Below are positions 5,447-64,000 of a DNA stretch of 64,000 nucleotides, one piece after another. The DNA lies in the IMG/VR virus record IMGVR_UViG_3300032296_003307, positions 62,001-126,000 of that record. One strand, written 5' to 3'. The translations under genes were made by a program, and so were the position numbers. The stretch comes from a virus. The notes beneath the pieces were generated by a model. That model saw nothing but the letters and a program-made list of their open reading frames with translations. It did not search any database and was not told the origin of the DNA. The stretch's first letter is position 1; the number at the start of each line of letters is the position of its first letter.

Positions 5447-5939
5447 GTTATATTTATGACCATGAAAAAATTAGAATTAATACAAATTATTAGAGAAGAA
5501 ATCAACAAGATTGTTAAAGAAGATTTTCGAATTGGTGGATTTCTACATTACACATATAATGAAAAAACACCAGATTTAGAATACCCCTTATCAAATCCAA
5601 AAGATGTTTGGACTTTTTTCTATTACAACTTTATACATCCTAGTAAAAATGCTGGATTTTATTTACCTCCCAGTATTAAAAAATGTAAAAATGAAATTGA
5701 TTTTTTTAAACTAAAAAATCAAAAAGAATCAGATGTCGATCCGAAATATAAAACAGAACTGAAAGACTATGATAGTCCGACTTTTACAGCAGGTTTGGTA
5801 GGAAGTATTGAAAGAGCTATGAAGCAAAGAAAATATACCGATAAGGAGACAACTTTTACTAAAATGGCTATGCAAATTCATAGAATACTTTAAATATTAA
5901 ACAGTTTTAGAAAAATAAGTTTTAGAAAATAAGTTATAT
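5421..5939 (+). repeat. Direct repeats flanking an inserted accessory gene
   Basis: A 33-nt segment covering the end of the FEN gene (5421-5453) recurs at 5892-5939 just before the helicase start. The second copy has one extra A and a further partial internal duplication of its TTTTAGAAAATAAGT part. The gene at 5462-5893 lies between the copies. Confidence 0.8.
5462..5893 (+). CDS. Inserted accessory protein with propeptide-like N-terminus
   Basis: A 143-residue protein of unknown function. The start is MKKLELIQIIREEINKIVKE, similar to the small gene at 44390 (MKKSELMRIVKEEMEKS); an in-frame ATG lies 6 nt upstream at 5456. The N-terminus holds I/L-x-E sites like those cut by T4-type prohead proteases. 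The rest is Lys/Asp-rich with aromatic clusters. The gene sits between direct repeats of the FEN gene end, so it was probably inserted between FEN and helicase. Confidence 0.65.
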   Translation: MKKLELIQIIREEINKIVKEDFRIGGFLHYTYNEKTPDLEYPLSNPKDVWTFFYYNFIHPSKNAGFYLPPSIKKCKNEIDFFKLKNQKESDVDPKYKTELKDYDSPTFTAGLVGSIERAMKQRKYTDKETTFTKMAMQIHRIL

Positions 5940-9257: not shown

Positions 9258-9560
9258 ATGAATAATTTCGATTTAAAAAAATATTTAGTAGAAAATAAAT
9301 TAACTAAAAATAGTCAAGTAGAAGAAAATGAACTTGAAAATATATTTAAACTAGATAATCAAAACAGGCAAATTACTTTTGACTTGAGAAAACTATCTAA
9401 TTCAGAATTTGAAGAAATATATGATTCATTGACTAATAACCCTGATATATATAGAATAAGAACTTATGGAAATGGTTTTATAGAGGTTGATTTAAATGAA
9501 TTAAATAATGAAAATAAATTATTATTGTTGAAATACAAAGATAAGATAAAAATTAAATAA
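9258..9560 (+). CDS. Small protein with recurring N-terminal peptide
   Basis: A 100-residue protein of unknown function. The start MNNFDLKKYLVENKLTKNSQ resembles the N-terminus of the protein at 48863 (NPGKWLVENKITTQSRL), including an LVE site. A TATTTATA motif ends 3 nt before the ATG and a strong terminator follows at 9575, so this is a self-contained cassette between two remnants of one gene (9184 and 9622). Confidence 0.65.
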   Translation: MNNFDLKKYLVENKLTKNSQVEENELENIFKLDNQNRQITFDLRKLSNSEFEEIYDSLTNNPDIYRIRTYGNGFIEVDLNELNNENKLLLLKYKDKIKIK

Positions 9561-19527: not shown

Positions 19528-20130
19528 ATGAAAGACATAATTAGAATGAACCAGCTAGCTGGTATTATCACAGAAGGCCAAGCTAAAAAAATGATGGAAA
19601 TTTTAACTGAAGGAGAAGTAGATGAAATGGCTACCTTAATCAATAAAAAATCTTCAGAAGGAAGTGGAAAACCTGTACAAGTAGGTGATACAATCAAATG
19701 GCAACAAGCGGTGTCTAGTGGTGATAACTATTACGGTAAAAATTATGTAACAATGAAAGGTAAAGTAACCAAGTTGTTAGGATCAGCTAATGTAGAAGCT
19801 GAAGATCTTGAAACTGGTGATTTGTATAGAGTTTCTCGTAAAGAATTAACTGTGATTTCTGAAATGGAGGGAACTTTAAATGAAGCTAATCCTGATTTAA
19901 CAAAATTTAAAAATTACCTCAATAAAAAAAGTTTTGGTATGGAAGTATTAGATGAACCTGGACCAAACATTTATTTTGAATTCTGGACACCAGCTGGTTC
20001 ACAAGCTTTTGAAGATTTATTAAATAAATTAAGTCTAAAATTTAAGAAAAATACAGAAAGAGATGGTGGAAAGTTAGTAACTATGTATTATGTAGATAAA
20101 GCAAGTGCAAAACAACTTTTTGGAAAATAA
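19528..20130 (+). CDS. Cassette protein 1 with propeptide-like N-terminus
   Basis: A 200-residue protein starting MKDIIRMNQLAGIITEGQAK, nearly identical in the first 24 residues to the protein at 26544, after which the two diverge. The leader contains an I-x-T-E/I-I-T-E site of the type cut by T4 gp21-like proteases. The body has a beta-rich central part (VGDTIKWQQ..., YVTMKGKVTKLLG) and a C-terminal alpha/beta part. It lies between its own promoter and terminator, inserted between the dCTP deaminase-like and polymerase genes. Possibly a protein packaged in the head. Confidence 0.7.
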   Translation: MKDIIRMNQLAGIITEGQAKKMMEILTEGEVDEMATLINKKSSEGSGKPVQVGDTIKWQQAVSSGDNYYGKNYVTMKGKVTKLLGSANVEAEDLETGDLYRVSRKELTVISEMEGTLNEANPDLTKFKNYLNKKSFGMEVLDEPGPNIYFEFWTPAGSQAFEDLLNKLSLKFKKNTERDGGKLVTMYYVDKASAKQLFGK

Positions 20131-26543: not shown

Positions 26544-26951
26544 ATGAAAGACATAATTAGAATAAATCAATTAGCTGGCATTATTACCGAAGGTCAAGCC
26601 AGAAAGATGATGCAAGTATTAAATGAAGAAGAAACTAATGAATATTCCTTAGAAAATCTAATTAAACAATGGGTTAATGATAATGCTGGGGGTTATGGTC
26701 CTGATAAAGATGATCCTCAATATTTCAAATTTAAGAAAGAAATGAATATGCTTCTTAATAATACTCTTGAAGAATTTAATCCTGATTATTATGGGGATGA
26801 TACAACAATGAGTCCTAATGATATATTAGAAGATTTTATAGAAGAAGCTGTTAATATTATTTCTAAATATACAATGGGTTACTATGGAGATGATACCTCA
26901 TTCAGTCCCGAAGATATTAAGGATGATTTTTATATTTTTATAAAAAGGTAA
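26544..26951 (+). CDS. Cassette protein 2 with propeptide-like N-terminus
   Basis: A 135-residue protein starting MKDIIRINQLAGIITEGQAR, nearly identical to the leader at 19528. The remainder is acidic and unrelated. It contains an internal repeat: YYGDDTTMSPNDILEDF and YYGDDTSFSPEDIKDDF, about 37 residues apart. Promoter, leader and terminator match cassette 1, so the body has been exchanged or has diverged. Possibly a head-packaged protein. Confidence 0.7.
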   Translation: MKDIIRINQLAGIITEGQARKMMQVLNEEETNEYSLENLIKQWVNDNAGGYGPDKDDPQYFKFKKEMNMLLNNTLEEFNPDYYGDDTTMSPNDILEDFIEEAVNIISKYTMGYYGDDTSFSPEDIKDDFYIFIKR

Positions 26952-44389: not shown

Positions 44390-44590
44390 ATGAAAAAATC
44401 TGAATTAATGCGAATAGTTAAAGAAGAGATGGAAAAATCTCTAATTAAAAAAGAGATAGAAAAATCTAAAGATAATAATCTTAAAGAAAAATTAAAAAAA
44501 GCTTTAGATGCACTTAAAAATAGTGGAAAAGTTACTAAAGAAGCCTTATTAGATTTTTTAGAAGGTTTTTTAAAAAACATAGACGATTAA
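44390..44590 (+). CDS. Small helical Lys/Glu-rich protein with propeptide-like start
   Basis: A 66-residue protein, MKKSELMRIVKEEMEKSLIK, almost entirely helical and highly charged. The first residues resemble the inserted protein at 5462 (MKKLELIQIIREEINKIVKE). It could be a small packaged protein. TATTTATA lies just upstream. Confidence 0.55.
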   Translation: MKKSELMRIVKEEMEKSLIKKEIEKSKDNNLKEKLKKALDALKNSGKVTKEALLDFLEGFLKNIDD

Positions 44591-48164: not shown

Positions 48165-48863
48165 ATGGGAACTAGAGCTCTTATTGGTTATTTAGACACA
48201 GATGGTGATCTAAAATTAACTTCAACATACAACCACTACGATGGTTATCCTCAAAACTTAGGTAAAGGTTTAGAAAATTTCTACAACAGTGATGCTAAAG
48301 CAGAAGAAGTTGCTAATGTAGGATATATTTCATTTTTAGATGGTGAAACAGGTGAAATTGAATCTAAAAACCAACAAATGCCTGATGTAACTAAATTGAC
48401 TGATAATTTTGAAGAAGCTATGATGGAAATAGCTGGAGAAATTGATGGAATGAGTGCTGATTATGGTTATATTTGGGATAATGAAAATCAAGAATGGATT
48501 ACTGTTAAAAACGAAGGCATTGGGTTAATGGCCAAAAATTTAGCATTGGATTTATCCCACCTAAAAGGCAAATTTGAAATGTCTCCCGAACAAACTATGG
48601 AAGCTAAAAAAGAAGTAAAAGAAGGTTATTATGGTACCACTAATGCTGAATACTATCTCCAAACCATAGGATATGATTCATTTGAAGATTTTTTTAATGA
48701 CAACCCAGGTGGTGAAGAGGCTTTAATTAATTGGATTGAAAGTGTTCCTGAATTTAGAAAAATGCTTATGCAACAAGGAATGATGGAAGCTAAAAAAGAT
48801 AAAGAAGAATTAGATGAATATTTCATCAACAAAATGAAATTTAGAGCTGGTATTATAAAATAA
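48165..48863 (+). CDS. Conserved T4-like phage protein, 232 aa
   Basis: MGTRALIGYLDTDGDLKLTS then TYNHYDGYPQNLGKGLENFY: a pattern shared by many T4-like phage proteins of unknown function. The rest is acidic and helical. A TATTTATA motif lies at 48142-48149. Its last base overlaps the next ATG. Confidence 0.68.
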   Translation: MGTRALIGYLDTDGDLKLTSTYNHYDGYPQNLGKGLENFYNSDAKAEEVANVGYISFLDGETGEIESKNQQMPDVTKLTDNFEEAMMEIAGEIDGMSADYGYIWDNENQEWITVKNEGIGLMAKNLALDLSHLKGKFEMSPEQTMEAKKEVKEGYYGTTNAEYYLQTIGYDSFEDFFNDNPGGEEALINWIESVPEFRKMLMQQGMMEAKKDKEELDEYFINKMKFRAGIIK

Positions 48864-49408
48864 TGAAAAAAGCAGATAACTTCAACCCTGGTAAATGGCT
48901 AGTAGAAAATAAAATTACTACCCAATCTCGTTTAAACGAGGCTTTAGCTGGTCAAATGGGAGCTGTTGCTGCTGCTACTAAAAACATTAAAACACCATCA
49001 GGAGAAGAACCTTCATCTAAACCAGATGAATTCAATTTATCTGTATTGGTAAATCCTTTATATAAAAGATATGCTAATTACAACTACAAACTTAAAGATG
49101 TAGTATTTGAAAAAGCAAAAGTAAAAGAAGGATTTTTCTCCGGTATATTTAGTAGTAATCCTACTATTAAATTTGTTTTCACCAAAGTTGCTGATGGTAA
49201 AGAAGCAACAATCCAAGTAAAACTTAAAGGTGATAAATTTGTATTAAGTAATTCCTCAACCTCAGATGACGTAATAGGTAGTATTCCCGACAGTGGTGAA
49301 GCCACTAAGTTTATAAATTACTTATTAGGACAATCCGAGTGGAAAGATGACTTAAACAATTCATTTGAAAATATCAAAGACAAATTAACACCTGAATCTT
49401 TCAAATAA
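48863..49408 (+). CDS. Tagged protein of unknown function, 181 aa
   Basis: The N-terminus NFNPGKWLVENKITTQSRLN resembles the leader of 9258 and contains L-V-E and L-N-E sites. An Ala/Pro-rich linker (about 28-58) follows, then a beta-rich domain. This layout (leader, linker, domain) fits a processed virion protein. It is co-transcribed with 48165. Confidence 0.65.
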   Translation: MKKADNFNPGKWLVENKITTQSRLNEALAGQMGAVAAATKNIKTPSGEEPSSKPDEFNLSVLVNPLYKRYANYNYKLKDVVFEKAKVKEGFFSGIFSSNPTIKFVFTKVADGKEATIQVKLKGDKFVLSNSSTSDDVIGSIPDSGEATKFINYLLGQSEWKDDLNNSFENIKDKLTPESFK

Positions 49409-59053: not shown

Positions 59054-59602
59054 ATGAAAGTAGAAACAACACCAATTAAAGACCTTTTGGTAATCACACC
59101 AAAGGTGTATGAAGACGACAGAGGATATTTCTTAGAGTCATTTAACTCAAGAGCATTTCGAGATGCCGGACTATATTACAATTTTGTTCAAGACAATCAA
59201 TCCGTAAGTCTAAAAAACGTAATTAGAGGGTTACATTTTCAAAAAAGTGTACCTCAGGCTAAATTAGTCAGGGTAATTGCCGGTGCAATTTGGGATGTGG
59301 CGGTAGATTTAAGAAAAGGTAGTAAGACCTATGGACAATGGTTCGGTATTGAACTTAATGAAGATAATTTCAAACAACTATTAGTACCAAGAGGATTTGC
59401 ACACGGTTTCTCAGTACTATCGGATGTTGCCGTTGTAAGCTATAAATGTGATGAGATATATATGTTGTCCGCTAGTGGAGGAATTATTTATTCAGACCCA
59501 ACCTTGAAAATAGATTGGAAGATAACAGAAAAACCAATAGTCTCAGATAAAGACGGTGAATTACCTAAATATGAGGATATAATAAAGGAACTTAACTTTT
59601 AG
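59054..59602 (+). CDS. rfbC: dTDP-4-dehydrorhamnose 3,5-epimerase (RmlC/RfbC)
   Basis: A 182-residue RmlC-type cupin: DDRGYFLESFNSRAF, then NVIRGLHFQ with the catalytic His, AKLVRVIAGAIWDVAVDLRK and VPRGFAHGFSVLSD. It makes the precursor of dTDP-rhamnose. It is separate from the main sugar island, with RmlA, B and D not seen here, so it may borrow host enzymes. Codon use (more GCG and CCG) differs from the left part of the window. Confidence 0.9.
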   Translation: MKVETTPIKDLLVITPKVYEDDRGYFLESFNSRAFRDAGLYYNFVQDNQSVSLKNVIRGLHFQKSVPQAKLVRVIAGAIWDVAVDLRKGSKTYGQWFGIELNEDNFKQLLVPRGFAHGFSVLSDVAVVSYKCDEIYMLSASGGIIYSDPTLKIDWKITEKPIVSDKDGELPKYEDIIKELNF

Positions 59603-59951
59603 AAAGTTCCATTACCATTTTTCTTTTTATTTCCTTTAATAATGAATAAATTTCTTTCATCGCTGAATCATTTTTGATTTTTGTTAACACCGAAGATATT
59701 CTCGTTGGATTAACATCGTCAAATAGTTCCATTAAATCATCAGTTGTTTCAACATCAAATAAGGCGAAAAGTTGTTTTTTAGTCATTTCGTTTTTTTCAT
59801 CCTCCAATATATCTCTAACATTAAACTCACCATTAATTTGTTGAGATGTTGGTTTTTGTATTTTAAGACCCTGAAACGAGGGTGAATTGATTGAAATCTG
59901 TTCATTAAGACCCATCAATTTTAACATTCTTTTTTGGCTTTCGTTAATCAT
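59592..59951 (-). CDS. Small tagged protein, 119 aa
   Basis: MINESQKRMLKLMGLNEQIS shares the R-I/M-L-x-L-M-G-L-N-E-Q leader with the M23 peptidase upstream on the same strand. The body is charged and helical. It converges with rfbC (11-nt overlap of 3' ends). Possibly a packaged or processed virion protein. Confidence 0.65.
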   Translation of the reverse strand: MINESQKRMLKLMGLNEQISINSPSFQGLKIQKPTSQQINGEFNVRDILEDEKNEMTKKQLFALFDVETTDDLMELFDDVNPTRISSVLTKIKNDSAMKEIYSLLKEIKRKMVMELSKS

Positions 59952-59952
59952 T

Positions 59953-60576
59953 TTATTTTTTTGGACAGAAGTTTTTATTTATTATTTTATCCGGGTCTAC
60001 AAATTGACCATTCTTTTTTAATTCAAAATGTAAATGAGGTGCTTGTGAATTTCCTTTCTTTGATGGTGAGTCACTCTTAGCACCACCACTAACACCAACA
60101 ACTTCACCTCTTTTAACAGTTCCTGACATTTTATCAATTTTAGACATGTGACAGAATTTGGCTTGAAGTTTTTTCTCATCGTTCTTGATGATTATCATTC
60201 CACCACAATCACCGTTAGTTGGATTGGATGAGTTACCAAAACTACCTGAAATTGTTCCATCAAAAGGTGCAACAACTTTTTCATAATTTGCGGCTAAATC
60301 AACCGCAGGATGATATGAATATCCTAAAAGTTTTCTTGGACCAAAAGGACTTGTAACGTTCCAAGGGTTAGACGCACCACACATTGGAGATATAACATCA
60401 TCAGGTTTAGACACAGATTCAGTGTCGACCTCAGAATCAACGTCTTTTTTCTCGTCAGAGTCACCTGAAAATAAGTTACCGATAAAAGATTTAATTTTAT
60501 CTAAAACGGACTGTTCATTTAAACCCATTAAGGTTAATATTCTTTCCGTTTCTTCATTTAGTGGTTGTTTAGACAT
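59953..60576 (-). CDS. M23 (LytM-type) peptidase with propeptide-like N-terminus
   Basis: A 207-residue peptidoglycan endopeptidase. The start MSKQPLNEETERILTLMGLN was chosen over the upstream ATG at 60603 because it matches the leader of the neighbouring gene and follows TATTTATA. The metal site is complete: His89 and Asp93 (HPAVD), His143 (FCHMS) and His181/His183 (HLHFE). A linker (about 40-62) separates leader and enzyme. It probably sits in the virion and cuts the wall on entry. Confidence 0.83.
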   Translation of the reverse strand: MSKQPLNEETERILTLMGLNEQSVLDKIKSFIGNLFSGDSDEKKDVDSEVDTESVSKPDDVISPMCGASNPWNVTSPFGPRKLLGYSYHPAVDLAANYEKVVAPFDGTISGSFGNSSNPTNGDCGGMIIIKNDEKKLQAKFCHMSKIDKMSGTVKRGEVVGVSGGAKSDSPSKKGNSQAPHLHFELKKNGQFVDPDKIINKNFCPKK

Positions 60577-60580
60577 ATTG

Positions 60581-60588
60581 TATAAATA
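60581..60588 (-). promoter_or_regulatory. TATTTATA motif before the M23 gene
   Basis: On the minus strand TATTTATA ends 4 nt before the ATG at 60576. It is the only reverse-strand example of the motif directly before a tagged gene. Confidence 0.45.
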
Positions 60589-60590
60589 CA

Positions 60591-61163
60591 TCAATCCCAC
60601 CAATTTTCAATACGTCGTTCTAATATTTTAAATAGTAGTTTTTTAGCCTTTTCATGTCTTACAATCCCAACCGCTAAATAACCCTTTCTTCCTTCAATAA
60701 AATAATTAACAAATCTTGGGTCCCTTTTCGCCACTCTTAGTGAGTGCGGATACTTTTCTAAGTATTGGTCTATATCGTCTCTTTTTGTGTCAAATACGAC
60801 TTCATACAAATTGTTTTCTGTAGGAACAAATTTCATATCCACATCACGATAATCAAAGTGTTCTGATTGATAATATTCTTCTTGAATCCTACCAATTAAT
60901 TTTTCACAAATTCTCATATAACGAACTTCGTTTTCCCATCCAACAAACCTCTGATTTTTTTCAAAAAGGTCTGCAGTATTTTTAATCTTGAACTTCAAAA
61001 CTTCAAAAATGAAATGGTCGTCCCAATCACGGTCTTTCCAAATTATTGGAAACCATCTCCAAAGATTTCTAAATCCTTGAAAAATGTCACGATGTAAGTG
61101 TTTTGCATCCCATTTAAACCATCTATATAGTTTCCAATACCACTGATTATATTCTTTTTTCAT
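60591..61163 (-). CDS. Trp-rich hypothetical protein, 190 aa
   Basis: MKKEYNQWYWKLYRWFKWDA: strongly aromatic and basic, later mixed alpha/beta. Its 3' end lies about 14 nt before the M23 start, so the three minus-strand genes may form one operon. Proteins of this layout occur in large phages; function unknown. Confidence 0.65.
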   Translation of the reverse strand: MKKEYNQWYWKLYRWFKWDAKHLHRDIFQGFRNLWRWFPIIWKDRDWDDHFIFEVLKFKIKNTADLFEKNQRFVGWENEVRYMRICEKLIGRIQEEYYQSEHFDYRDVDMKFVPTENNLYEVVFDTKRDDIDQYLEKYPHSLRVAKRDPRFVNYFIEGRKGYLAVGIVRHEKAKKLLFKILERRIENWWD

Positions 61164-61199
61164 ATTGATAAAGATATTAAATTATTATGAGTTAACAAG

Positions 61200-61207
61200 T
61201 ATTTATA
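61200..61207 (+). promoter_or_regulatory. TATTTATA motif in the divergent region
   Basis: TATTTATA ends 3 nt before the GTG start at 61211, in the short gap between divergent genes (61164-61210). Confidence 0.4.
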
Positions 61208-61210
61208 TTT

Positions 61211-62698
61211 GTGGGACAAAGATTTCTTATATCTGAAAGTGAAAAAAAAGATATATTAGGGTTATATGAAGACATCATAAGACCTTACCATAAATTAATG
61301 CAATGTAAATTTAGTTCCGATGGTAAAGTAATTGTTTATGAAAATGTTGCATATAGTACTGAAACAGGTGAAGAACTACTCATTAATGAAGGTTGGTCTT
61401 TAAGTGATATATTACATGCGGGTGCAGATGTTTTGTCTGCGGGTTTGGATTTTGTAATACCAGGTTCAGGGGCAATTGTTGATATATTGAACGGACTAAG
61501 TTATATAATTGAAGCTCAGTTCAAAAGCGAAGCGGAAAAAGATAGTTTATATCTTATGGCAGCGGTAACATTTGCATTTGTTGTTTTGCCAGGTCCATTA
61601 CAAACTGTTGCGGTACCACTAAAACAATTTTTGAAAGGAGGTGCAAAAGGTGCATCAAAATTAGTTTTATTAGCACTTAAAGTTGTTGGAGGGATTCTAG
61701 ATAAAGTTTTACTTGGAATACCCAAATTGATTAATAAAGCATTGAGTACCAAATTAGGGAAAGGTATATTAGGTAAGTGGGGTAAAAAAATATCTGACTT
61801 TTTTTCAGCGTTTTCCGCAAGGGTAAAAAATTTATTTAACAAAATGACTGGAGGCTCCGCAGCACAAACCGTAACGAAGAAAACTTTGACAGGTGCTGAA
61901 AAATTAGCAGTCAAGTCGTCCAAATTAACACCCAAAGCGTTAAGTAAGATGACCGTTATGTCGCAAAAATTAGTTGGAAAGATAATTGGTAACAAGGCGG
62001 TGGCACTTAAAGCTCTAGGATTTAAGCCAGGAAAAATGTATAGATATTTGGGAAAAAACGGAAAAATGAATACAGTTTACATCAAAGAAATAAAACCTGA
62101 TGGGACTGTGATAGGACTTTTTGGAAAAAAATCGGGAGATACTGTTCTTGGAACCCAAGCTGCGGTTCCCGCAGAAACATTTTTAGGAAGAGGAATAGGG
62201 GGTCCATGGGGTAGAAGAGGTTCATCAGTCATGGTTCCTTTATTTGTTAAAAGAATGACTGATGCTATGAGAGATGATGGTACTATTGATGCGAATGTTT
62301 TAGCCGCTGGTGGTGAATTAAACGCCGATGAAGTTTCCGCGGCATCTTTAGAGTTTGCACCTGAGGATGTGGTTGCTGATTACCAAGGGGATACCGGTCA
62401 GTACGATGTTTCAAGTAACGTAACATCAATTCAAAATGCGTTAATGGAGTTAGACCCTAATTCATTACCCAAATTTGGCGCTGATGGTAAATTCGGACCT
62501 GAAACATTATCCGCAATTGAAAAATTCCAAAAAGATAATGGACTTACACCAAACAAAAAGGCTGATAAAGCTTTTGTCAAAAAATTAATAGAAAAATTAC
62601 CGGCTAATAGTCCAAACAAAGAAGAATTAAATTCATTATTAACTAAACCATCTGAGGTTAAATCAACTGAAACAGATGCTGAAATTGAAACAACATAA
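61211..62698 (+). CDS. Probable internal virion protein with membrane-active helices and peptidoglycan-binding domain
   Basis: A 495-residue protein starting at GTG. The leader MGQRFLISESEKKDILGLYE matches the next gene (MGKRFIITEEEKKRILGLYE). Then come long Gly/Ala-rich hydrophobic helices (about 70-190), a basic region, and a C-terminal peptidoglycan_binding_1-like unit (SIQNALMELDPNSLPKFGAD; GKFGPETLSAIEKFQKDNGL). The mix suggests a protein ejected at infection that crosses membrane and wall. Toxin-like function is possible but unsupported. Confidence 0.75.
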   Translation: MGQRFLISESEKKDILGLYEDIIRPYHKLMQCKFSSDGKVIVYENVAYSTETGEELLINEGWSLSDILHAGADVLSAGLDFVIPGSGAIVDILNGLSYIIEAQFKSEAEKDSLYLMAAVTFAFVVLPGPLQTVAVPLKQFLKGGAKGASKLVLLALKVVGGILDKVLLGIPKLINKALSTKLGKGILGKWGKKISDFFSAFSARVKNLFNKMTGGSAAQTVTKKTLTGAEKLAVKSSKLTPKALSKMTVMSQKLVGKIIGNKAVALKALGFKPGKMYRYLGKNGKMNTVYIKEIKPDGTVIGLFGKKSGDTVLGTQAAVPAETFLGRGIGGPWGRRGSSVMVPLFVKRMTDAMRDDGTIDANVLAAGGELNADEVSAASLEFAPEDVVADYQGDTGQYDVSSNVTSIQNALMELDPNSLPKFGADGKFGPETLSAIEKFQKDNGLTPNKKADKAFVKKLIEKLPANSPNKEELNSLLTKPSEVKSTETDAEIETT

Positions 62699-62702
62699 AA
62701 AA

Positions 62703-63101
62703 ATGGGAAAAAGATTTATTATAACAGAAGAAGAGAAAAAAAGAATTCTCGGACTTTATGAACAGGACGAACCAACACCTGAAACAACTGATGAAAAACC
62801 ATCATTAATTGACACCTTAAAACAAATGGGATTTGAAGAAAGTTCTGACCGTATTGGTTTGTGGCAAATAAAAAAAGACGACAATACATATGCTGCGGTT
62901 TTAACGTTGAATCCAACAAAAGACCAAATTAGCAAAGCGGAAATTGTAGGAACTCCAGATATCCTTTCCACAATACAAAAGGCATTCAACGAGGTCAACA
63001 TTCCAAATATTATTTCAGGTGAAAAACTAATTACTCGAGCACCATTTAAAGAAGAAAATTTAATTAAGAAATTATCAGAACCGGCAAAAAGTGAGTTTTA
63101 A
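62703..63101 (+). CDS. Small tagged protein, 132 aa
   Basis: The start MGKRFIITEEEKKRILGLYE (62703) repeats the leader of the previous protein; an upstream in-frame ATG at 62676 lies inside that gene. A Thr/Pro/Glu linker (about 21-35) follows, then a beta/alpha domain with VLTLNPTKDQISKAEIVGTP. Probably packaged like its neighbours. Its stop overlaps the next ATG. Confidence 0.68.
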   Translation: MGKRFIITEEEKKRILGLYEQDEPTPETTDEKPSLIDTLKQMGFEESSDRIGLWQIKKDDNTYAAVLTLNPTKDQISKAEIVGTPDILSTIQKAFNEVNIPNIISGEKLITRAPFKEENLIKKLSEPAKSEF

Positions 63102-64000
63102 TGAAATTCAAAATAACCCATACACAATATAAAAAATTAACAGAATCATTGGACCCTGATGTTCAAGATTTTTTTAGTGCTGAAAAGGGTAAGTTTCATT
63201 TGTTGGCACCAATTCCAATTAGTAGAACAACCGCTTCTGAGGTTATAAAAAGAATTTTGAAATCAGAAAACAAAAAGTATTTTTTTGGTGATGATATTGA
63301 CCTTAATGAATTATCTTTAGTTAACAGATTAAGATTTGGTGTTTATTTAGAAGAGGTCTTAAGCGAGGTTGGTACAAGAGGTCATAACTATGAAGGATTT
63401 ATGGCAGGTCTTTTTGATGGATATCTACCTAAAGACACTAATTATTGGTTTGATTATAGGATTAGAGAGGGTTCGGTAGAACAAAAGTTTATAAAAAGTA
63501 GTGGAGAATCACCACAACTTAAAACATATGCTAATTTCATAAAAAACAATCCTCAATACGAAGGTTTATTAGATAAACAAAATACTCCTGAAATCATCAA
63601 ACAGAAAATACAAATGTTAAACAGTCCTGAGTTTTTAACAGACATTTACATTTTTTCAACTAAAACACCTGAACCAGGAAAAGGTTATAGAATCGATAAT
63701 TATGTTGTTTACAAAGATGAGATGATTAAGATTTTAATGAATCCTAATAATCTTAGAGAGCCTAAACAAAAAGGACAAACCGCTTTGAGAATACCGGCAA
63801 GTGTCTTGGGGGGAATTGATTTTACCATAATAACTCCAAGATATAAATCGTCCGAACTACAGGAACTTGTAAAATTGGACGAAAAAGAACGTGCGGTGTT
63901 AAGTGCGTTTGGTAAACATAGTGAACACATAAGACCAGATGTAATTAAAGATTTGAGTAAAAACTTAGATGAGTTTATCGAATCACTTATTGAAATACAA
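63101..64000 (+). CDS. Tagged protein, possible nuclease (3' end outside window)
   Basis: An open frame of 300 codons with no stop in the window, starting MKFKITHTQYKKLTESLDPD. The leader has a Q-Y-K-K-L-T-E site like other tagged proteins here. Residues around 95-140 (GTRGHNYEGFMAGLFDGYLP; RIREGSVEQKF) show an E-x-K-like pattern seen in restriction-type nucleases. A packaged nuclease is possible; the evidence is thin. Confidence 0.65.
   Translation, partial: MKFKITHTQYKKLTESLDPDVQDFFSAEKGKFHLLAPIPISRTTASEVIKRILKSENKKYFFGDDIDLNELSLVNRLRFGVYLEEVLSEVGTRGHNYEGFMAGLFDGYLPKDTNYWFDYRIREGSVEQKFIKSSGESPQLKTYANFIKNNPQYEGLLDKQNTPEIIKQKIQMLNSPEFLTDIYIFSTKTPEPGKGYRIDNYVVYKDEMIKILMNPNNLREPKQKGQTALRIPASVLGGIDFTIITPRYKSSELQELVKLDEKERAVLSAFGKHSEHIRPDVIKDLSKNLDEFIESLIEIQ

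Follow-up and report, generated by a model that had tools for sequence, protein, structure and literature searches.

Why should proteins with otherwise unrelated bodies begin with the same short peptides? The question is raised by a stretch of viral DNA of 64,000 bases, referred to here as the window, which corresponds to bases 62001–126000 of the virus record IMGVR_UViG_3300032296_003307 (268,739 bases in total; G000 in our numbering). A first-pass annotation of the window had proposed that at least ten of its proteins carry related N-terminal leaders resembling the capsid-targeting propeptides of bacteriophage T4. Our analysis makes it likely that, in T4-superfamily phages related to Flavobacterium phage immuto, these leaders serve as removable tags for loading proteins into the capsid, and that the cargo of one leader family, designated E, mimics the C-terminal tail of the scaffold protein. 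The virion location of the tagged proteins, the cleavage of the tags and their binding partner are what we infer from these comparisons.

The first capsid protein of the record shares 53% identity with that of immuto and is homologous to the T4 gp23 family. Two comparison sets were used: a type-1 (immuto-type) set, comprising immuto and seven further records (G001–G007), and a type-2 set (G012, G013 and G015–G017), which was reached through the second capsid protein of the record. Genes were called with a simple script of our own, and the start sites are approximate.

Extent of the shared leaders

All eleven N-termini named in the first-pass annotation were found at their positions, and the sharing proved far commoner than the ten or more proteins initially claimed, with about 45 tagged proteins in the record. 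When the N-terminal 30-mers of 351 open reading frames of the record were compared with one another, 141 pairs scored at least 42; the controls gave 5 pairs with shuffled segments, 9 with internal ones and 21 with C-terminal ones. Raising the threshold to 50 left 84 pairs, compared with 0, 5 and 17 in the respective controls. Numbers so far above all three controls exclude a chance origin of the leaders.

Profiles identified 14 leaders of family A in the record, 8 of family B, 7 of family C, 9 of family D, 3 of family E and 6 of family F. The consensus sequences are MKKhhxLTESDLxRIVKRVIKE for family A, MKIIITESQ for family B, xRFIITExEKxxILxLYE for family C, NLQENIxRIKxMMGLLxE for family D, RMQKLAGIITE for family E (longer form QFxRMQKLAGIITE), MKKSELxxIIKEE for family F and FDLKKYLVENK for family G (variant pattern FDLKK[YF]LVEN[KR]). 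A check of the rest of the genome, as the annotation had recommended, showed that the families reach well beyond the window. Among the relatives, profiles found 43 leaders in G012 and 36 in G013, some of the family F matches being false positives on TerL; these were rejected, their cause being the conserved TerL N-terminus. The LVENK and MKKxEL pairs originally noted are thin within the window, but the families to which they belong, G and F, have many more members in the relatives: family G occurs four times in G004, three times in immuto and also in G001 and G007, and family F five times in G003. A set of 50,697 phage records gave no tblastn match to individual leaders, which are too short as queries, and relatives of the M23 protein of the window, sought by peptide pattern, were not found either.

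As a separate observation, the stretch L282 (a contig of 96.9 kb) contains 17 kb with many genes starting in A, B, C or D leaders and has the appearance of a cargo-gene island.

Family E leaders and the scaffold tail

In type-1 phages, the scaffold gene adjoins the capsid gene, and its product ends in a conserved C-terminal tail, IxExNxxFxRMQKLAGIxK, across 73 relatives. Leader E reproduces the very C-terminal end of the scaffold, QFARWQKLAGIK; family E leaders thus consist of this tail with a new site behind it (NEQFIRMQKLAGIITE). The alignment covers NEQFxRMQKLAGII, with 67% identity over 15 columns, is found in many genomes and lies exactly at the scaffold end. An [ILVM]-x-E motif stands just ahead of the tail core in 73/73 and 77/77 cases, compared with 61.5% of type-1 background 14-mers.

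The match was recovered in both directions. A profile of 11 E leaders searched against 2775 proteins retrieved, at E<0.02 and besides the leaders themselves, scaffold C-termini only (7 scaffolds), and the reverse profile built from the 73 scaffold tails retrieved E leaders down to 7e-7. None of the column-permuted profiles reached the match (0/100 and 0/60). In 80 further loci, the E profile identified 29 scaffold tails (best 7e-6) and gave no match in type-2 loci. In six-frame searches of whole records, seven immuto-type records matched at their scaffold tail; in Microcystis phage Mel-JY01 the scaffold tail was the sole E-profile match, and the T4 genome, searched in six frames as well, had no E-profile match. 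In profile–profile comparison, E scored 2e-12 with the scaffold tail and 3e-7 with D; the controls scored 0.08 and 0.23.

Judged by its sequence, family D, which heads the genes at 59592 and 59953, is the sister of family E. Family D was also considered as a copy of the type-2 scaffold tail; this candidate was dropped, the profile of the type-2 tail retrieving no D leaders. The family C helix ITExEKKRIL bears a weak resemblance to the conserved internal gp22/scaffold motif LTESQKxKVL (0.001, probability 22%), a comparison that was chosen post hoc and on which nothing is claimed. Immuto gp067 (L016:15627-16868), annotated as a "DNA polymerase phi-like protein", is a scaffold by its position and C-terminal tail.

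Head genes, prohead protease and predicted cleavage site

A prohead protease, which the first-pass annotation had suggested seeking outside the window, is encoded in the record by S77 (gp21-type) genes (PF03420, 2e-30 and 2e-24), alongside T4-type portals and capsid proteins. The S77 protease is present in 12/12 immuto-type records and in 10/11 in the type-2 search. The predicted propeptide site of the capsid protein, QLVxE, is invariant in 81/81 type-1 sequences, and in type-2 capsid proteins the predicted site is [FQ]LINE in every sequence shown.

For the leaders, the cleavage pattern scored was I/L/V/M-x-E (gp21-type). It follows the tag in 98% of family A, 93% of family D, 100% of family E and 97% of family F leaders, compared with 30–54% when residues were shuffled and 20–24% in untagged proteins; because the seeds of the leader families partly included the final E, these counts depend to some extent on how the families were defined. 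The I/L-x-E site originally proposed to close the leaders is therefore present in four families when V and M are also allowed, and is weaker in families B and C, as discussed below.

The type-1 S77 proteases themselves start with MKQVLIE followed by T (e.g., L004:13270-13869), a possible self-processing site like the LIE-9 noted for T4 gp21.

Tags as modules and their candidate cargo

Leaders are exchanged on homologous bodies. The protein encoded at 61211 is headed by a C leader in this record and its G012 homologue by an A leader, the 61% identity of the bodies beginning directly behind the leaders; this exchange with A is the sole link of family C to the other families. The FFSNLEQM protein has A or F-like leaders on bodies that are about 72–77% identical, G012 95498 carries two tandem F leaders and the homologous G013 protein, 61% identical, a D leader, and G013 241346, with an F leader, matches G016 94203, with a B leader. 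Since A, B, C and F can stand in for one another or for D on a given body, they probably perform the same job. Tags are also found at the opposite end: in G016 (L269:8088-9223) and G017 (L276:3320-4716), an M23-like protein and its neighbour carry a D-type peptide at the C-terminus. Such C-terminal tags have no trailing site, but have one in front.

Of the cargo initially proposed, the M23 peptidase stands as a candidate on its Pfam match; the peptidoglycan-binding protein of the window is a further candidate, likewise on a Pfam match. Outside the window, the candidates are a second peptidoglycan-binding protein, a GH19-type endolysin, a P-loop ATPase and a polyphosphate kinase 2. A single record has a pair of endolysin-like paralogues, of which one bears a D leader and the other is untagged (L011:12867-13661; record 175125-175949). 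The polyphosphate kinase 2 with a D leader (L010:1799-2923, PF03976, 1.8e-71) is a possible head-carried metabolic enzyme. Of the other suggested cargo, no nuclease was identified, and a membrane-active protein is not supported, its body giving no usable model (predicted local distance difference test score, pLDDT, 50). The AlphaFold2 model of the 61211 protein was of low confidence (pLDDT 49.6).

Leaders equally common on cytosolic replication proteins had been named as the finding that would speak against head loading. None of 221 replication, metabolic, chaperonin, glycosyltransferase or tail homologues is tagged, and in the type-2 genomes alone the same functional classes gave 0/37 tagged proteins where 4.4 were expected (P=0.009).

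Two phage lineages in one record

Genes at 0–120 kb of the record match type-1 phages best, and those at 120–269 kb match mostly type-2 phages. TerL, portal, S77 protease, scaffold and capsid protein are each present in two copies, and the lineage switch lies near an rfbC-like gene at about 59 kb of the window (59054-59602), at the edge of the genes originally noted. Among the related records searched, none besides this one had two separate S77 genes; the two partial matches to S77 in LR756508 may stem from one gene. The two-lineage record may reflect either an assembly chimera or a genuine fusion. In the record and in its relatives, E and G leaders occur on the type-1 side and A–D leaders on the type-2 side, with F on both. 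The leaders thus segregate with the head genes whether the assembly is chimeric or fused, which fits the expectation for a head-loading tag.

The notion of a single phage using all tag families was not borne out. The noted genes and their other examples belong to different lineages joined near 59 kb of the window, so E, F and G on the one hand and A–D on the other should not be pooled as the set of one phage. What stands of the proposed T4-like capsid-targeting propeptides is their core, namely the S77 protease, the capsid sites, the I/L/V/M-x-E pattern and the absence of tags from the 221 homologues; the pooling into one phage and the nuclease and membrane-active cargo are not supported.

A 1337-amino-acid protein near the head genes (L003:6421-10434) shares a module of about 115 amino acids (GTGKKPxGSxRRLYTDE.., 72% identity) with a D-tagged protein of the other lineage (record 131287).

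Alternative explanations

The leaders could be shared amphipathic helices that serve another location or oligomerisation (membrane, tail or host target), the terminal E being incidental. The cargo does include cell-wall enzymes able to act from tails or at lysis, and several family C homologues lack a trailing site. We nevertheless consider this explanation unlikely, given that E matches the scaffold tail specifically, that tail and baseplate proteins are untagged, that the site follows the tag in 93–100% of families A, D, E and F, and that C-terminal tags lack a trailing site yet have one in front. Even less credence is given to family E as a SHOCT-like small domain that resembles the scaffold tail by having converged on the same common L-A-G-I turn. 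The scaffold is never reached by column-permuted profiles, and a 15-column match at this identity, repeated in many genomes, falls precisely at the scaffold end; these results oppose the SHOCT-like appearance, by eye, of LQKRAGIITExEYKxKL (19902; internal in G001 and G007), which scores E 0.03–0.11, just below the scaffolds. SHOCT membership was rejected, with no Pfam match at E<=0.01 in the 19528 and 26544 proteins and none for 19902.

The leaders might also be traces of 5'-end recombination or recent duplication, or a DNA or RNA element (promoter, translation signal), with no function at the protein level. Some tandem family B genes in G012 are indeed recent paralogues, with same-codon use of 0.64 versus 0.57 expected. 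In family A of G000, however, identical residues use the same codon in 57% of cases versus 51% expected from codon usage, and such near-random synonymous codons indicate that selection acts on the peptide. The bodies are unrelated, and the motif also closes proteins, namely the scaffold and the M23 proteins of G016/G017, a position in which a 5' element would be senseless. We regard this explanation as highly improbable.

Several points weigh against the leaders being capsid-loading tags that exploit the scaffold site. The test of family D against the type-2 scaffold was negative, with a weak profile–profile result (0.002, probability 14%), and mimicry is therefore demonstrated for E only and not for the leaders at 59592 and 59953. 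The targeting sequence of T4 itself is unlike the T4 scaffold C-terminus. The cleavage site is found in 71% of family B leaders, a weaker figure than in A, D, E and F; it is irregular in family C (44% at normal spacing, 16/18 with wider spacing) and absent in some homologues of the 61211 protein. To these are added the partial dependence of the site counts on the seeds and the resemblance to SHOCT domains of some E-like sequences (LQKRAGIITExEYKxKL) within proteins, and no virion proteome or mass spectrometry for the clade was found in the literature searched.

Tagged genes in the window

The tagged genes are collected in Table 1. The gene starting at 63101 (+) extends to about 64015, past the end of the window, and the N-termini at 19528 and 26544 share the form MKDIIR[MI]NQLAGIITEGQA.

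Table 1 Tagged genes, predicted leaders and the lineage-boundary gene in the window
Feature	Position	Strand	Details
Family D leader of gene 59592-59951	59901..59951	(-)	MINESQKRMLKLMGLNE, predicted cut before Q
Tagged protein, 119 amino acids, no Pfam match	59592..59951	(-)	N-terminus MINESQKRMLKLMGLNEQ
Family D leader of M23 peptidase	60514..60591	(-)	MYLYNMSKQPLNEETERILTLMGLNE, predicted cut before Q
Tagged M23 peptidase	59953..60591	(-)	Pfam PF01551 2.5e-14; N-terminus ..PLNEETERILTLMGLNEQ
Family C leader, GTG start	61211..61270	(+)	MGQRFLISESEKKDILGLYE, predicted cut before D
Tagged protein, 495 amino acids, C-terminal peptidoglycan-binding domain	61211..62698	(+)	PF01471 6e-10
Family C leader of gene 62703-63101	62703..62762	(+)	MGKRFIITEEEKKRILGLYE, predicted cut before Q
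Family B-like leader, assigned by eye	63101..63145	(+)	MKFKITHTQYKKLTE, predicted cut before S; N-terminus MKFKITHTQYKKLTES
Family E leader (scaffold-tail motif and site)	19528..19575	(+)	MKDIIRMNQLAGIITE, predicted cut before G; E profile 3e-10
Family E leader	26544..26591	(+)	MKDIIRINQLAGIITE, predicted cut before G; E profile 3e-9
Family G leader, LVENK	9258..9293	(+)	MNNFDLKKYLVE, predicted cut before N; same leader on several G004/immuto proteins
Family G leader, LVENK	48863..48907	(+)	MKKADNFNPGKWLVE, predicted cut before N
Family F leader	5462..5521	(+)	MKKLELIQIIREEINKIVKE, predicted cut before D; N-terminus MKK[LS]EL
Family F leader	44390..44428	(+)	MKKSELMRIVKEE; N-terminus MKK[LS]EL
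rfbC-like gene (identity by eye), outside the tag system	59054..59602	(+)	At the immuto-like / G012/G013-like boundary

Comparison with known systems

In T4, a capsid-targeting sequence (CTS) brings proteins into the core and is removed by gp21; Alt is processed at its C-terminus as well, and the cited sections name the partner of the CTS in the prohead no more precisely than "the core" (PMC9026906, PMC3012670). For T4 IPIII, replacing E by D at the site is reported to prevent cleavage while leaving loading intact (PMC9026906). The T4 system (IPI–III, Alt) resembles the present one in its short N-terminal peptide ending in L/I-x-E, its gp21-type protease and its unrelated bodies (PMC9026906, PMC3012670). 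Whereas T4 tags a handful of proteins, about 36–45 are tagged here per large phage, in at least six leader families, of which one copies the scaffold C-terminus; tags may stand at either end, and the cargo candidates are an M23 peptidase, a peptidoglycan-binding protein, a GH19 endolysin and a polyphosphate kinase 2. Leaders of family G and those of the form MIKLxDILxE show a general resemblance, by eye only, to the T4 CTS MKTYQEFIAE.

In P22, the coat-binding end of the scaffold suffices for cargo loading, and in herpesviruses the C-terminal tail of the scaffold binds the capsid protein, the maturation protease cutting just ahead of the tail. We know of no herpesvirus cargo family that uses the scaffold tail. 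Engineered loading of P22 is achieved by fusing the cargo to the scaffold protein (PMC9962691). Unlike that laboratory design, the present system has a natural fusion of about 15 residues with a protease site behind it.

The N-terminal 30 residues of P1 DarB suffice to direct a reporter into the head, a likeness to the present leaders (PMC9024508); P1, however, apparently lacks a scaffolding protein of its own, and DarB stands alone as one large protein rather than as a family of tagged cargo. In SPN3US and phiKZ-like phages, many head proteins start with a propeptide that a T4-like protease cuts at a short motif resembling that of T4, and the protease itself has a C-terminal targeting propeptide (PMC7411985, PMC10052503). 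Their propeptides, in contrast, are long, several exceeding 100 residues, and the sections cited report neither a family of short tags in common nor a match to the scaffold (PMC7411985, PMC10052503).

Proposed mechanism and implications

We propose that the tag, a peptide of 10–20 residues and probably an amphipathic helix, would dock its protein onto the assembling prohead. In the immuto-type lineage, the E tag copies the C-terminal tail of the scaffold, so E-tagged cargo would probably occupy the scaffold-tail binding site, presumably on the inner face of the capsid shell or on the scaffold core. The S77 protease would then cut after I/L/V/M-x-E beside the tag, the scaffold and the tags would be cleared, and the freed enzymes would stay in the head with the DNA and be ejected together with it. 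A broader form of this proposal, to which we give roughly even chances, is that the tags are detachable copies of the shell- or core-binding end of the scaffold, that the leader families differ in which contact surface of the prohead core they imitate, and that dozens of enzymes are packed per head.

The copying of the scaffold tail provides a concrete and testable prohead partner for a targeting tag. A leader followed by I/L/V/M-x-E offers a sequence-only guide to which of the hundreds of unknown proteins encoded by large environmental phages are probably carried in the virion, and the short, interchangeable tags form a set for loading proteins into phage heads.

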